Source: an uncultured Alphaproteobacteria bacterium (GTDB taxonomy: Bacteria; Pseudomonadota; Alphaproteobacteria; Puniceispirillales; Marisalimonadaceae). Taken from it: a stretch of DNA of 40,639 bases. Both the position numbers and the translations under genes were made by a program. The stretch spans positions 1-40,639 of the forward strand of contig CAKZQZ010000086.1 in the NCBI GenBank assembly GCA_937142855.1, in the 5' to 3' direction. Below are positions 5,953 through 35,328 of this stretch, piece after piece; the first letter of the stretch is position 1; every line of letters starts with the position of its first letter. The notes beneath the pieces were generated by a model. It was not told the origin of the DNA. It saw only the letters and a list, made by a program, of their open reading frames with translations, and made no database searches.

Positions 5953-7611
5953 ATGAAAAATAATATTAATATTGCACTAGCCCAGCTAAATCCAAAAGTT
6001 GGTGATATTAAAGGAAATGTCTCAAAATTACTTAAAATTAGAAAAGATTTAGGTACAAATATAGATATCATAGTTGTACCTGAATTATACTTAACTGGTT
6101 ATCCAATTGATGATTTAGTTCTTAGAAACGATTTTTTAGAGCTTGTTGAAAATGAAATTAATAAACTTGCAAAGCTTACTGAAGATGGCAACGCTGCAAT
6201 TATAATTGGTTCTCCGAGAAAAGATGAAGGTCTCTTAAAAAACTCTGTATTTGTATTAGATGATGGAAAAATTATATCTGTTAGAGACAAACATGTTCTT
6301 CCAAATACTGGTGTTTTTGATGAACAGAGAATTTTTTCAGCTGGATCATTATCCGGTCCAGTTAAAATAAGAGGTATTTTATTTGGGTTACCTATTTGTG
6401 AAGATATTTGGACAGAAACCGTTATAGAATGTTTATATGAAACAGGTGCTGAAATAATTCTTTCGATAAATGCATCTCCTTATTCAATTAAAAAAAGTGA
6501 CCAGAGAATGTCTGTTGCTGTTTCTAGAGTGTTAGAATCTAAACTTCCTATTATTTATCTCAATAGAGTAGGAGGACAAGACGAGTTAGTATTTGATGGA
6601 GCCTCTTTTTGCTTAAATGAAAAGGGAAAATTGACTGTACAGCTAAAAGATTTTGAAGAACAAGTTTTAAAAATTGAATTAAACAAAACAGAAAACTTAT
6701 GGAAAATCAAAGATAATATTCACAAAATTTCTTCTAAGACAGAAGCTCTTTATAAATCTTTAGTTGTAAGTGTTAGAGATTATGTTCTTAATAACGGTTT
6801 CCCAGGTGTTGTTCTTGGAATGTCTGGAGGTATAGACTCTGCTTTAGTAGCAGCCATTGCTACCGATGCTCTTGGACCTAATCTTGTAAAGGCAGTAATG
6901 ATGCCAAGCCCATACACAAGTGAAGAAAGTCTAGAAGATGCTAAATTAGCATCTTCTAAGTTAGGAATTGAATATTCATACCTAGAGATAGAGAATGGTA
7001 TGAACACTATAGATAAAATTTTAACTGGTTTTAACGGCCTTAATATGCCACCAGGAATTACGGAAGAAAACATACAATCAAGATTAAGAGGTTTACTACT
7101 GATGGCCATTTCAAACAGATATGGCTTTATGGTTTTAGCTACGGGAAATAAATCAGAGTATGCAGTTGGTTATGCTACGTTGTATGGTGATATGTGTGGT
7201 GGGTTTGCTGCAATTAAAGATGTATGGAAAACTGATGTTTTTAATTTATGTAAATGGAGAAATAAGAATAAACCTATAGAGTTTTTAGGGCCAGATGGAA
7301 TGGTTATTCCAGAAAGGGTAATCACTAAACCTCCAAGTGCTGAATTAAGAGAAGATCAAAAAGACACAGATAGTTTGCCGGAGTATGATATTCTTGATGG
7401 TATTTTAAAAAAATTAGTTGAAGATAATTTATCATTAAACGAGATAGTAGATAATGGTTACAACATTGATGATGTTAAGAAGATATCCATGCTTTTATCT
7501 AGATCTGAATACAAAAGATTCCAATCAGCACCAGGGCCAAAGGTTACTGAAAAAGCTTTTGGTAGGGATAGAAGATATCCTTTAACTAGTGGTTTTAGAA
7601 ATTGGAATTAA
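5953..7611 (+). CDS. nadE: glutamine-dependent NAD+ synthetase
   Basis: Final step of NAD synthesis: amidates nicotinate adenine dinucleotide using glutamine and ATP. Two domains are visible in the 552 residues: an N-terminal nitrilase-fold glutaminase with E44 (VVPELYLTGYP), a lysine in RDKHVLPNTGVFDE and a cysteine in LPICEDIW; then an NAD synthetase domain with the pyrophosphate loop GMSGGIDSALVAAI, TGNKSEYAVGYATLYGD and the C-terminal GRDRRYPLTSGFR. Length is normal for the two-domain form. It lies 22 nt after pncB on the same strand, so salvage and last-step genes are probably co-expressed. Confidence 0.95.
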   Translation: MKNNINIALAQLNPKVGDIKGNVSKLLKIRKDLGTNIDIIVVPELYLTGYPIDDLVLRNDFLELVENEINKLAKLTEDGNAAIIIGSPRKDEGLLKNSVFVLDDGKIISVRDKHVLPNTGVFDEQRIFSAGSLSGPVKIRGILFGLPICEDIWTETVIECLYETGAEIILSINASPYSIKKSDQRMSVAVSRVLESKLPIIYLNRVGGQDELVFDGASFCLNEKGKLTVQLKDFEEQVLKIELNKTENLWKIKDNIHKISSKTEALYKSLVVSVRDYVLNNGFPGVVLGMSGGIDSALVAAIATDALGPNLVKAVMMPSPYTSEESLEDAKLASSKLGIEYSYLEIENGMNTIDKILTGFNGLNMPPGITEENIQSRLRGLLLMAISNRYGFMVLATGNKSEYAVGYATLYGDMCGGFAAIKDVWKTDVFNLCKWRNKNKPIEFLGPDGMVIPERVITKPPSAELREDQKDTDSLPEYDILDGILKKLVEDNLSLNEIVDNGYNIDDVKKISMLLSRSEYKRFQSAPGPKVTEKAFGRDRRYPLTSGFRNWN

Positions 7612-9006: not shown

Positions 9007-10380
9007 ATGAATAATCTAAAACTTTATAATACAGCTAATAGAAAAGTAACTGATTTTGAGCCTGTAGATAACAGGAACATAAAAATATATGCTTGTGGTC
9101 CAACAGTCTATGATTTTATCCATATTGGTAATGCCAGACCATTAGTTATATTTGATATTTTAGTAAGATTATTAAGAAAAATATATCCCAAAGTTACATA
9201 TGTAAGAAATATTACTGACATTGATGATAAAATTAATCAAAGGGCCTTTGAAGAAGGCATATCAATTTCACAATTAACTAGTAAAACAATAAAAAATTTT
9301 CATTATGATTGTGAAGCTCTAGGAAATTTAAAACCGGATTTTGAGCCTAAGGCTACTGATCATATTAATGAAATGATTGATATGATTAAAACCCTAATTG
9401 ATAGAGGCTTTGCCTATTTATCTTCAAAACATGTTATATTTTCTATTAATAAATATAAAAACTATGGATCCTTATCAGGTAGAACTTTATCCGAAATGAT
9501 ATCTGGGTCGAGAGTTAATATAGAAGATTATAAAAATAATCCTGGTGATTTCATACTTTGGAAACCATCTTCAAGTGATCAACCAGGCTGGGAGAGTCCA
9601 TGGGGAAGGGGACGTCCTGGATGGCACATCGAATGCTCGGCAATGAGTAAAAAATATTTGGGTAAACATTTTGACATACATGCTGGTGGACTTGATTTAA
9701 TATTTCCACATCATGAAAATGAAATTGCGCAATCGTGCTGTGCAAATGATACAAAAGTTATGGCAAACTTTTGGATTCATAATGGTTATGTAAATTCTGA
9801 TGGAGAGAAAATGTCTAAATCACTTGGTAATTTTATTACAATTAATGATTTACTTTCAGAATTTTCTGGAGAAACGATAAGATATGTATTAATGCAAGCA
9901 CATTATAGGGCTCCTTTAAATTTTTCAAAAAAATCTCTAGTAGAAGCTAAAAAATCATTGTCTAGACTATATAGAGCTGTAGATGGTTATCAGGTAAATA
10001 ATGAGACAGATCATGAAACAATAAGTAACCTTTATGATGATTTAAATACTCCCAAAGCTCTTGCAAGAGCTCATTATCTTGCCGACCAAGCAAACAAAGG
10101 TAGTAAAGAGTGTGCACAATTATTAAAAAATTTCAGTAAAATGCTTGGTATTTTATCTTATTCTTCTGAAGACTGGTTCAAGTCTAGAAATAATTCCCAA
10201 AACACAAAAAAATTAAATAATAAAATATCTGAGAAAGAAATTAATAAACTTATTTTAGAAAGACAAAATGCCAAACAGGAAAGAAATTTTAAAAAAGCTG
10301 ACGAAATTAGAGAAAAGCTTCTAAATTTAGAAATTATTCTTGAAGATCAACCAGGAAAAACAACGTGGAGAAAAGTTTAA
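9007..10380 (+). CDS. cysS: cysteine--tRNA ligase
   Basis: Charges tRNA-Cys. The 457-residue protein has the zinc ligand C30 in [18 protein letters not shown] with the HIGN motif at H39, the WHIECSAM zinc-site segment, [18 protein letters not shown], and the KMSKS motif as [11 protein letters not shown]. All catalytic features are in place and length is typical. The last part is lysine-rich and charged, as expected for the anticodon-binding end. The trmJ reading frame can open inside the cysS 3' end, but I place the trmJ start after the cysS stop. Confidence 0.95.
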
Positions 10381-33335: not shown

Positions 33336-33779
33336 TTGAAAAAAATTCCATCTCATATAAGTGAGTATAATTATTTTTGTAAATTAAGTACAAGGTGGAA
33401 TGATAATGATATTTATGGTCACATGAATAATATTATTTATTACGCTTTATTTGATACTGCGGTTAATAAATGGTTAATTAAAAACAAGTTAATTGATATT
33501 AAAAATGGTCAAAATATTGGACTAATTGTTCAATCAGGTTGTAATTATTTTTCTTCTTTTGAATATCCAGAAAATATAAATGCTGGTATTAGAGTTACAA
33601 AAATTGGTAAAAGTTCTGTTAGATATGAAGTCGGATTATTCAAAGAAAAAGAAGAATTATCCTCCGCAGATGGTTTCTTTATTCATGTTTATGTAGACAG
33701 AAAAACCAACAAACCCATTGCTTTAGATTATAATTTTAAAAATACTTTAGATACAATTTTTGTTAAAACAGAAGTTTAA
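33336..33779 (+). CDS. hot-dog acyl-CoA thioesterase
   Basis: A 147-residue 4-hydroxybenzoyl-CoA thioesterase/YbgC-like protein. The family active-site block is STRWNDNDIYGHMNNIIYYA, where the aspartate and histidine residues lie. The start is TTG at 33336, one base after the preceding stop, which indicates translational coupling with the aminotransferase. Substrate unknown. It converges on the cyclophilin-like gene: the two stops share TTAA at 33776-33779. Confidence 0.85.
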   Translation: MKKIPSHISEYNYFCKLSTRWNDNDIYGHMNNIIYYALFDTAVNKWLIKNKLIDIKNGQNIGLIVQSGCNYFSSFEYPENINAGIRVTKIGKSSVRYEVGLFKEKEELSSADGFFIHVYVDRKTNKPIALDYNFKNTLDTIFVKTEV

Positions 33780-34147
33780 AGTTTTTGAACTATAACAGTT
33801 TCACCTTGCTTAATACTCGCAATATACTCTTTTTGAAATTTACAATCTGCCCAAATATTTGCAGGAGATATTAACCTTATTTCATTTTCTTGAGATACTG
33901 GCGTTCTTCCATATCCTATAGCTATTGCAGATCCTGCTGCCCAAAAAGCTACCTCACCATATTCAACTACAGATCTAGCATCAGGTTCTAGATTAATATT
34001 TAAAGGAGTATCAAAATAAATTTCTTCGCCCCATTTTTGAACTACGGATTTAAAAGGAAGCGCATTATAAATTATGTGAGCTGTTTTAGTATTTCTTAAT
34101 TTTAAAATCAGTTCCTTATTTTCAAATTTTAATATTAATTGTTTCAT
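33776..34147 (-). CDS. cyclophilin-like fold protein (DUF369/TM1367 type)
   Basis: A 123-residue protein of the short cyclophilin-like family, with ALPFKSVVQKWGEEIYFDTP, VVEYGEVAFWAAGSAIAIGY and GRTPVSQENEIRLISPANI. Members have a cyclophilin barrel without the usual proline isomerase active site; function is unknown. It is the last clearly chromosomal gene before the tRNA/integrase boundary. Confidence 0.78.
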   Translation of the reverse strand: MKQLILKFENKELILKLRNTKTAHIIYNALPFKSVVQKWGEEIYFDTPLNINLEPDARSVVEYGEVAFWAAGSAIAIGYGRTPVSQENEIRLISPANIWADCKFQKEYIASIKQGETVIVQKL

Positions 34148-34218
34148 AACTATTTAGCTTTACTTTTTAAATATTATTATTATTTGTATGTATAACATAT
34201 ATTTATTCTTATGTTAAA

Positions 34219-34293
34219 GGGACTATAGCTCAGCGGGAGAGCACTTCGTTGACATCGAAGGGGTCACTGGTTCAATCCCAGTCATTTAGTCCA
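34219..34293 (+). tRNA. tRNA-Val(GAC)-like gene with abnormal acceptor 3' end; likely att site
   Basis: The 5' part is a good tRNA: GGGACTA, T8-A9, D stem GCTC/GAGC, anticodon arm CTTCG-TTGACAT-CGAAG with anticodon GAC, and T arm ACTGG-TTCAATC-CCAGT. After the T stem the expected acceptor strand TAGTCCC-N-CCA is not there. Instead CATT intervenes, then TAGTCC at 34287-34292 pairs with only six of seven acceptor bases, with no CCA. A recombinase gene follows 79 nt later, so the 3' end was probably remodelled by integration. The gene may be impaired; tRNA-Leu in this window has a normal encoded CCA. Confidence 0.65.
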
Positions 34294-34371
34294 TTAAATA
34301 CAAACACTTAACTCCAATACATCAACCTCCATATCGAACATGTCACTCTACAGTCACAATAGGAGGGACAT

Positions 34372-35328
34372 ATGGCTACTATTCGTAAACGAAACAATAA
34401 ATACCAAGTTCAAGTCCGTGTCAAAGGTCAGTTTGCATCTGATACATTTGTTAATCTCAATCACGCAAGAAGCTGGATTAGGCAAAAAGAAATAGAACTT
34501 GAAGGTAGGGTTTTGGGTAAAAGGTATAAACCTAAAACAATGTTAGAAATCCTAAATGAATATAAAACAAAGATTACACCCTTAAAGAAATCATCACAAA
34601 ATGAGATTATAATTATTAATGCTTTGATCAAACATAAATGGATACATAAGCCTCTTGCATCACTATGCTCCAGCGATGTTGCAAGATATAGAGACGTAAG
34701 ATTACAAACTATAAAAGCTTCATCCTTTGCACGTGAATTCTGTATTTTAAAACATGCGTTGAAGGTTGCTGAAGTAGAGTGGAATTGGAATACACCAAAC
34801 AATTTACTAGGCAATATAAAAATACCCAAAGTACGTTCGAAAGCTATTAGAAGAATAGATGATATCGACCTTGAAAGGCTTTTAAAAGCTGCTGCTGAAC
34901 ATAGAAACCAATATCTTAAACCAATTATTATTTTAGCTCTCGAAACTGCTATGAGGCGAGGGGAGATCTTATCTCTTAAATGGTCTGATATCGATATGCA
35001 TCGAGGACTCATCATAATTGATAATACCAAAACAGGATTTCCTCGCTCTATACAAATGAACGATAAAGTAAGATCAGTTTTAACTTCATTGAATGAACTG
35101 GGTGAACAAGTGTTTCCAATATCAGTCAATAGCCTTAGGTTATGTTATCAGAGGTTGTGTAAGAAGTTAGGGATAAAAGTACGTTTTCACGACTTTAGAC
35201 ATGAAGCCATAAGTCGTTTGTTTGAGCAGAACTTATCAATACCACATATAGCTTCAATTAGTGGTCACAGAACAATGAGCCAACTCTTCAGGTATGCCCA
35301 CTTTAAAGTTTCAGTCAATGCTTCTTAG
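34372..35328 (+). CDS. tyrosine recombinase (phage/island integrase)
   Basis: A 318-residue tyrosine recombinase. The N-terminus is an arm-type/SAM-like DNA-binding region (ATIRKRNNKYQVQVRVKG), followed by the core-binding helices and the catalytic domain: R195 in ETAMRRGEIL, K220, H273 and R276 in FHDFRHEAISR, H299 in SGHRTMS and Y308 in LFRYAH. All catalytic residues are present. AGGAGGG precedes the ATG. It sits just beyond the tRNA-like gene in the same direction, the usual layout of a tRNA-targeting island. The C-terminus is odd: after YAH it ends in FKVSVNAS, and a second RYAH box follows in another frame (see findings). Confidence 0.92.
   Translation: MATIRKRNNKYQVQVRVKGQFASDTFVNLNHARSWIRQKEIELEGRVLGKRYKPKTMLEILNEYKTKITPLKKSSQNEIIIINALIKHKWIHKPLASLCSSDVARYRDVRLQTIKASSFAREFCILKHALKVAEVEWNWNTPNNLLGNIKIPKVRSKAIRRIDDIDLERLLKAAAEHRNQYLKPIIILALETAMRRGEILSLKWSDIDMHRGLIIIDNTKTGFPRSIQMNDKVRSVLTSLNELGEQVFPISVNSLRLCYQRLCKKLGIKVRFHDFRHEAISRLFEQNLSIPHIASISGHRTMSQLFRYAHFKVSVNAS

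Follow-up and report, generated by a model that had tools for sequence, protein, structure and literature searches.

The damaged tRNA-Val(GAC) gene at positions 34219 to 34293 of the window is, with a probability of roughly nine in ten, the attL of an integrative element whose target is restored from the 5' side. Most likely, the broken gene is the discarded host original and the working gene has been rebuilt at the far end of the element, so that the cell is not missing tRNA-Val(GAC). This reading draws on the sequences themselves, the gene order, empty sites in relatives, repeats in the attachment arms and the decay of old left copies. The window, i.e. the whole stretch of DNA that was analyzed, is the entire 40,639-nucleotide contig C86 of a 2.32-Mb genome (G000) in 122 contigs, which is 100 % complete and 1.83 % contaminated.

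The damaged copy

Read directly, positions 34219 to 34282 of the forward strand start with GGGACTA, end with CCCAGT and hold normal D, anticodon (GAC) and T arms. This stretch, the displaced host part and core of attL, matches bases 1-64 of the intact tRNA-Val(GAC) copies with 100 % identity. It is followed by CATT (34283 to 34286), TAGTCC (34287 to 34292) and ATTAAA, and CCA is absent. The ten bases after tRNA base 64 are CATTTAGTCC (34283 to 34292, forward strand), where intact copies have TAGTCCCACC(A); they are element-derived and replace TAGTCCCACCA, the 3' acceptor strand and CCA. At the 3' end, CATT-TAGTCC thus stands against TAGTCCC-ACCA in the tRNA-Val(GAC) of the genus. With TAGTCCA shifted by four bases, six of seven Watson-Crick acceptor pairs can form; in register, CATTTAG gives two Watson-Crick pairs and one G-U pair. 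On the arms, the CATT before TAGTCC, the six of seven acceptor pairs and the missing CCA, the preliminary description was accurate.

In the predicted RNA fold of the window copy, the six acceptor pairs are kept and the extra bases are bulged (-22.1 kcal/mol, z -1.63); the intact copy folds with -25.6 kcal/mol (z -2.21). ARAGORN called no tRNA at 34219 to 34293, tRNA-Leu being its sole call in the window, and the Rfam model RF00005 (cut-off 29 bits) matched 34226 to 34282 only, corresponding to model positions 8-63 of 71, with 41.2 bits. The 64-base stretch occurs with 100 % identity in 21 of the 37 genomes of the genus that were searched, those without a full match being mostly incomplete; the match is therefore no chance resemblance. 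The same CATTTAGTCCATT, with the ten element-derived bases identical, is found in the separate MAG HS5SWF_bin.12 (JAACDT010000174.1), where the adjoining integrase is 95 % identical in protein, so the broken end is not a one-off assembly error. The window copy is a real damaged tRNA-Val(GAC), ordinary in its consequence for the cell.

The intact copy in the same genome

The preliminary description had proposed to look for another tRNA-Val(GAC) in the whole genome, and one was found at C98:9574-9500, with 75/75 bases, TAGTCCC-ACCA and a full-length score of 67.7 bits. It is the one intact Val(GAC) among the 44 tRNA matches listed for G000, every one of which was read, in a search that scored 150 of 213 candidates and is not a formal census. 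A tRNA-Val(TAC) is located on contig C29. With these two genes present, no aberrant tRNA molecule is needed, and the earlier concern that the damaged copy might be the sole tRNA-Val(GAC), leaving the cell to depend on an isoacceptor or an aberrant molecule, falls away. A loss of tRNA-Val(GAC) with reliance on another isoacceptor is ruled out by the intact copy.

A second copy on C98 (7190 to 7126) is without bases 1-10 and has an intact 3' end. After the intact tRNA, positions 9500 to 6457 of this contig (locus L061) hold apparent tandem remnants of 3'-restoring elements, namely a left-arm-like sequence, a tRNA copy that is truncated at the 5' end and has a TGTCACACTCCTGTCACAC arm, and what is left of an integrase (short, 200 aa); tRNA-Pro(GGG) follows the remnants at 6315 to 6239. 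Near the right end of the element, a D5_N/DUF5906 primase-helicase-like gene (C98, 9979 to 11403) gives a hint of a replication module of the element's own.

No exact overlap of at least 15 bases was found between the ends of C86 and C98, so that their linkage in G000 rests on the homology of the arms and the similarly high G+C content at the element ends (0.58 on C86 and 0.60 on C98), from which we infer that the two contigs carry the two ends of one element. Judging from its position, the sequence from 35329 to the contig end at 40639 would be element cargo. It encodes part of a bicarbonate transporter, LysR, two MerR, glutaredoxin/MauE, cation efflux, DsbB and DsbA-like proteins, among them pieces of genes related to metals and redox functions; the G+C content of this stretch increases from about 0.33 to 0.58. 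In HS5SWF_bin.12, a different cargo follows the integrase. A plasmid origin of the cargo was considered and rejected: 413 records match, none over more than 80 % of the query, and the best of those listed cover 8-13 % at about 67-73 %.

Empty and occupied sites in relatives

The left chromosomal neighbor of the tRNA in the genus, at occupied and empty sites alike, is a cyclophilin-like gene (33776 to 34147, reverse strand; PF04126, E-value 2.1e-32). The native intergenic region between this gene and the damaged copy (34148 to 34218, forward strand), which is similar to the flank in G028 and in relatives with an unoccupied site, would hold the host's own tRNA promoter; a promoter scan of this region gave nothing above chance. 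The gene order in the genus is mnmC-like, amidohydrolase-like, aminotransferase-like, thioesterase-like, cyclophilin-like and tRNA-Val(GAC), where the first four labels are our assumption from the sequences, the cyclophilin-like, integrase and methyltransferase labels being excepted.

At the empty sites of two SAR116-cluster relatives, G012 and G024, the cyclophilin-like gene is followed by one intact tRNA and a methyltransferase gene, with a gap of 21 bases (G012) or 15 bases (G024) between the latter two. An intact copy, which the preliminary description had sought in relatives without the element, is thus present in both. In G009, the cyclophilin gene is followed by a 64-base broken copy, the integrase gene, 11.3 kb, a 75/75 copy, 21 bases and the methyltransferase gene. 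G004 has the same layout with a decayed left copy, no integrase seen and a perfect right copy 15 bases from the methyltransferase gene. Comparison with the empty sites places the restored tRNA of both genomes on the 3' side of the element, adjoining the original downstream flank, and the G009 layout implies that the 5' part of the working copy and everything upstream of it are element DNA. The earlier view of an island boundary with an imperfect copy left by tyrosine recombinase integration is supported. The claim that integration left the tRNA unrestored is not borne out, since restoration takes place at the opposite end of the element.

A complete tDNA with a displaced 5' fragment upstream in the same orientation, and the element between them, is present on single contigs in G009, G013, G016, G020 and G004; in G013, G016 and G020, the broken copy with its integrase gene and the intact copy are 12-15 kb apart. 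In G000, the complete tDNA and the displaced fragment sit on different contigs. Only in G009 and G004 is the intact copy directly followed on its right by fam9; elsewhere, G013, G016 and G020 included, there are other genes or the contig end. A broken left copy adjoins an integrase of the family in G000, G009, G013, G016, G020, G030 and HS5SWF_bin.12, and G019 has a broken copy on a contig that ends before any integrase gene. An intact tRNA-Val(GAC) was not found in G030 (79 % complete) or G019 (59 % complete), each of which has a broken copy.

These junctions bear on tRNA-dependent lysogeny, as in some actinobacteriophages, in which an element breaks the host tRNA and brings a separate complete tRNA elsewhere. 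Its hallmarks are a short core (~10 bp), junctions neither of which rebuilds the tRNA and a separate element-borne tRNA; the accessible text of PMC10865867 describes phage integrase relatives with and without tRNA reconstruction. Such relatives, together with a broken tRNA on the integrase side and a second, intact tRNA inside the region that bears the element, would agree with lysogeny of this kind. However, the intact copy is no free-standing cargo, since its 3' side leads into the chromosomal flank after 21 bases in G009 and 15 bases in G004, just like the empty sites; the shared core has 53-64 bases and not about 10, and the tRNA is rebuilt at the right junction. Lysogeny is largely refuted by the G009 and G004 junctions, and we regard it as quite improbable.

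Decay and use of the two copies

The left copies of G004 and G026 have 86 % identity over 36 bases (a remnant) and 79 % over 39 bases, respectively, and those of G030 and G019 have 97 % and 92 %. The right copies are 75/75 in seven of eight cases, including G004 and G026, and 74/75 in G016. Intact right copies and decayed old left copies are expected if the right copy serves the cell. Against this stand the incomplete genomes G030 and G019, in which no intact copy was found, and the fact that most left copies are still perfect over bases 1-53, as would fit either a recent integration or a degree of continued use.

The left copies of G009, G013, G016 and G030 are called as tRNA-Val by ARAGORN, i.e. 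four of the seven broken copies on the integrase side, HS5SWF_bin.12 having been judged by sequence and not scanned. Their AGGTTTT acceptor gives two Watson-Crick and four G-U pairs. Functional G-U acceptor stems were considered and rejected, as shuffled sequences fold equally well as the G009 copy (z 0.09). When the right arms were scanned for promoters, the results did not exceed those of shuffles; the promoter of the restored tRNA would presumably be supplied by the element.

Attachment arms and crossover

The arm repeat TGTCACTCTACAGTCACA (34341 to 34358, forward strand) is a probable arm-type integrase site. The TGTCAC repeat is located 121-124 bases from the tRNA start in all 11 elements measured (seven with a broken and four with an intact copy), and TGTCACAC repeats are also found at opposite element ends. 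While the arm spacing is constant, the acceptor letters vary among elements (CATTTAGTCCA, AGGTTTTTACC, AGGTTTTTTCC, AGGTTTTTCCC and TTAAAGTCTGC vs. TAGTCCCACCA).

Eight intact copies have an element right arm (G000 on C98, G009, G013, G016, G020, G034, G004 and G026), and these arms carry TGTCACAC-NNN-TGTCACA 90-130 bases upstream of the tRNA with a AATGAAAAATCATTG-like block nearby. This pattern, chosen after the arms were inspected, occurs 14 times in 11 of the 40 genus genomes, each time, judging by coordinates, in an attachment arm at tRNA-Val(GAC); the reversed pattern, used as a control over the same genomes, has 0 occurrences. The window's own left arm is a variant that the pattern does not match. 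In G000, it occurs in two places, the arms before the intact and before the 5'-truncated copy on C98.

Bases 11 to 53, which include the anticodon stem-loop, are common to all attachment copies, and the crossover probably took place within them, at the anticodon stem-loop. The left copies of G030 and G019 have stem mismatches that were at first taken to mark host/element hybrids and used to map the crossover; this was dropped because relatives of the order are without the alternative allele and decay explains the mismatches equally. In three right arms (L062, L063 and L065), the last bases before the element-side tRNA look like the native leaders of the host (TTTGATAAT precedes GGGACTA on both sides in G013, for instance) and may hint at the way the 5' part was captured.

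An alternative to 5' restoration is an ordinary 3'-restoring integration in which the acceptor strand of attP was later damaged by mutation or deletion and an unrelated second tRNA copy rescues the cell. In its favor, 3' restoration does occur in sister elements whose integrase belongs to the same family (G014, G025, G035 and G063), and TAGTCC persists, displaced by four bases. Nevertheless, all seven integrases beside broken copies form one clade (99/94) that shares the 5'-carrying right arm, the spacing to the arm repeat is kept, and the wrong acceptor ends differ within the clade (CATTTAGTCC, AGGTTTTT and TTAAAGT), as expected of a segment that is no longer under selection. The later deletion that the preliminary description had offered as a cause is not needed, since the acceptor strand next to the integrase gene belongs to the element attP and the arm spacing is unchanged in 11 of 11 elements. 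Later damage is thus considered very unlikely. An assembly or binning artefact, for which the 122 contigs of G000 and the climb in G+C content from 0.33 to 0.58 after the integrase might speak, is hardly conceivable given the same broken end and integrase in the independent MAG HS5SWF_bin.12 and the same architecture in separate relatives, several of them from single cells.

Integrase family and polarity of restoration

The window integrase (34372 to 35328, forward strand) is an apparently intact tyrosine recombinase of 318 aa (PF00589, E-value 1.8e-24). R195, K220, H273, R276, H299 and Y308 are invariant in the alignment of its family, and we take them to be the catalytic residues. A PF00589 integrase lies inside the element in the window, G009, G013, G016 and G020, that of G020 reading with one stop; in G004 and G026, whose elements have decayed, none was found. 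G014, G025, G035 and G063 have an integrase of the same family after an intact tRNA, about 61-62 % identical to that of the window where full length. The far copy in G035 and the free-standing right ends of G000, G014 and G028 are without bases 1-7 to 1-10 and keep the 3' end.

In the integrase tree, the four integrases beside intact copies form another clade (100/98) next to that of the seven beside broken copies. An intact tRNA is found just before the integrase gene in seven of eight outgroup rows (Rhizobium and other alphaproteobacteria), and none was found there in row L129; these tRNAs are of three kinds, Val(GAC) among them. Since the sister clade restores the 3' end of the same tRNA as usual, one integrase lineage seems, from sequence comparison, to have reversed which half of the tRNA is restored. 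The tree is midpoint-rooted and its deep forks are weak (84/84), so a single reversal is the simplest reading and not a proof. We consider it reasonably likely that one reversal took place within the lineage at one tRNA, leading from a 3'-restoring ancestor to a clade that carries the 5' part and its own upstream region, with the 3' acceptor strand drifting. As part of this reading, the rest of the element and the old host copy would have decayed in G004 and G026, leaving tRNA-Val(GAC) with the upstream region of a mobile element, i.e. a promoter takeover. No account of a polarity reversal within an integrase family was noticed in the literature, which is weak evidence with subscription journals largely uncovered.

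Other integrases of the genus were observed beside tRNA genes. Those of L092 and L102 (about 1360-1430) are beside a reversed, 5'-truncated tRNA with a CAT anticodon, as read by eye. A second integrase family (L081 to L110), about 35-37 % identical, lies beside intact tRNA-Arg genes, and its member in G000, on C29, is beside tRNA-Pro(TGG). The 5'-restoring elements (L062, L063, L064, L065 and L072) have a common protein set, mostly without Pfam match, in which fam8 matches phrog_4756 (function unknown).

Discussion

In the proposed mechanism, the attP of the element would consist of its own upstream sequence and the 5' part of the tRNA (at least bases 1-53), with no usable 3' acceptor strand. 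The tyrosine recombinase would carry out the strand exchange within the tRNA, somewhere from base 11 to base 53. The left product, which would be the window copy, would join the host promoter and 5' part to the useless 3' end of the element, next to the integrase gene. The right product would join the element's upstream region and 5' part to the host 3' end with CCA, giving the intact tRNA, which in G000 would be C98:9574-9500. The cell would use the far copy, transcribed from a putative element promoter, and the window copy would be a by-product free to decay. A search for free circular or viral forms found none, with no exact match to the two broken ends and four distant integrase relatives only (27-36 % identity).

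An apparent tRNA defect would thus become a clear case of an island that swaps, for a decoding tRNA present in a single copy, both the 5' part and the region upstream. If this is true, hosts of decayed elements (G004 and G026) keep a tRNA-Val(GAC) whose upstream region is of mobile-element origin. What most deserves attention is the polarity reversal inside a single integrase family: sister elements of opposite polarity with the same integrase family, arm sites and insertion spot make the flip directly testable, and the same pair allows testing whether a host becomes bound to the element's right end through 5' restoration. A practical consequence is that tRNA annotation around such islands miscounts, as ARAGORN calls broken copies as tRNA-Val. 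The accessible text of PMC9897764 describes cases in which displaced fragments of tRNAs were wrongly listed as genes.

The 5'-restoring integration found here is of a rare but known kind. In the accessible part of the Islander publication, 159 of 3919 genomic islands leave a 5' tDNA fragment (PMC4383910). The window element resembles these in its tRNA target, the tyrosine integrase on board, and the complete tRNA at one end with the displaced 5' part at the other. Unlike them, it has a sister clade of the same integrase family that leaves 3' fragments at the same tRNA, and its displaced part is long (53-64 of 75 bases). According to the accessible part of a review (PMC8371274), integration via the 5' half is seldom met in bacteria, for which it cites Williams 2002, and the original promoter is retained by all but very few recombinant tRNA genes of bacteria, pTN3-like elements being the archaeal exception. 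As with the pTN3-type archaeal integrases in the accessible texts of PMC5495485 and PMC8371274, integration occurs via the 5' half, and the full tRNA is rebuilt and split from its original promoter; pTN3 integration splits the integrase gene, whereas it is whole here. With the tycheposons, as far as the accessible text describes them (PMC10872708), it shares being an island with a tRNA, a tyrosine recombinase and cargo in marine bacteria. The closest comparison is provided by the S-type 3'-restoring islands of G035, G014, G063 and G025, which have the same tRNA, integrase family, TGTCAC arm repeats and insertion point. In contrast to the window element, which has neither an intact tRNA beside the integrase gene nor a 3' fragment at the far end, their intact copy is beside the integrase gene and their far copy is without bases 1-7 to 1-10.
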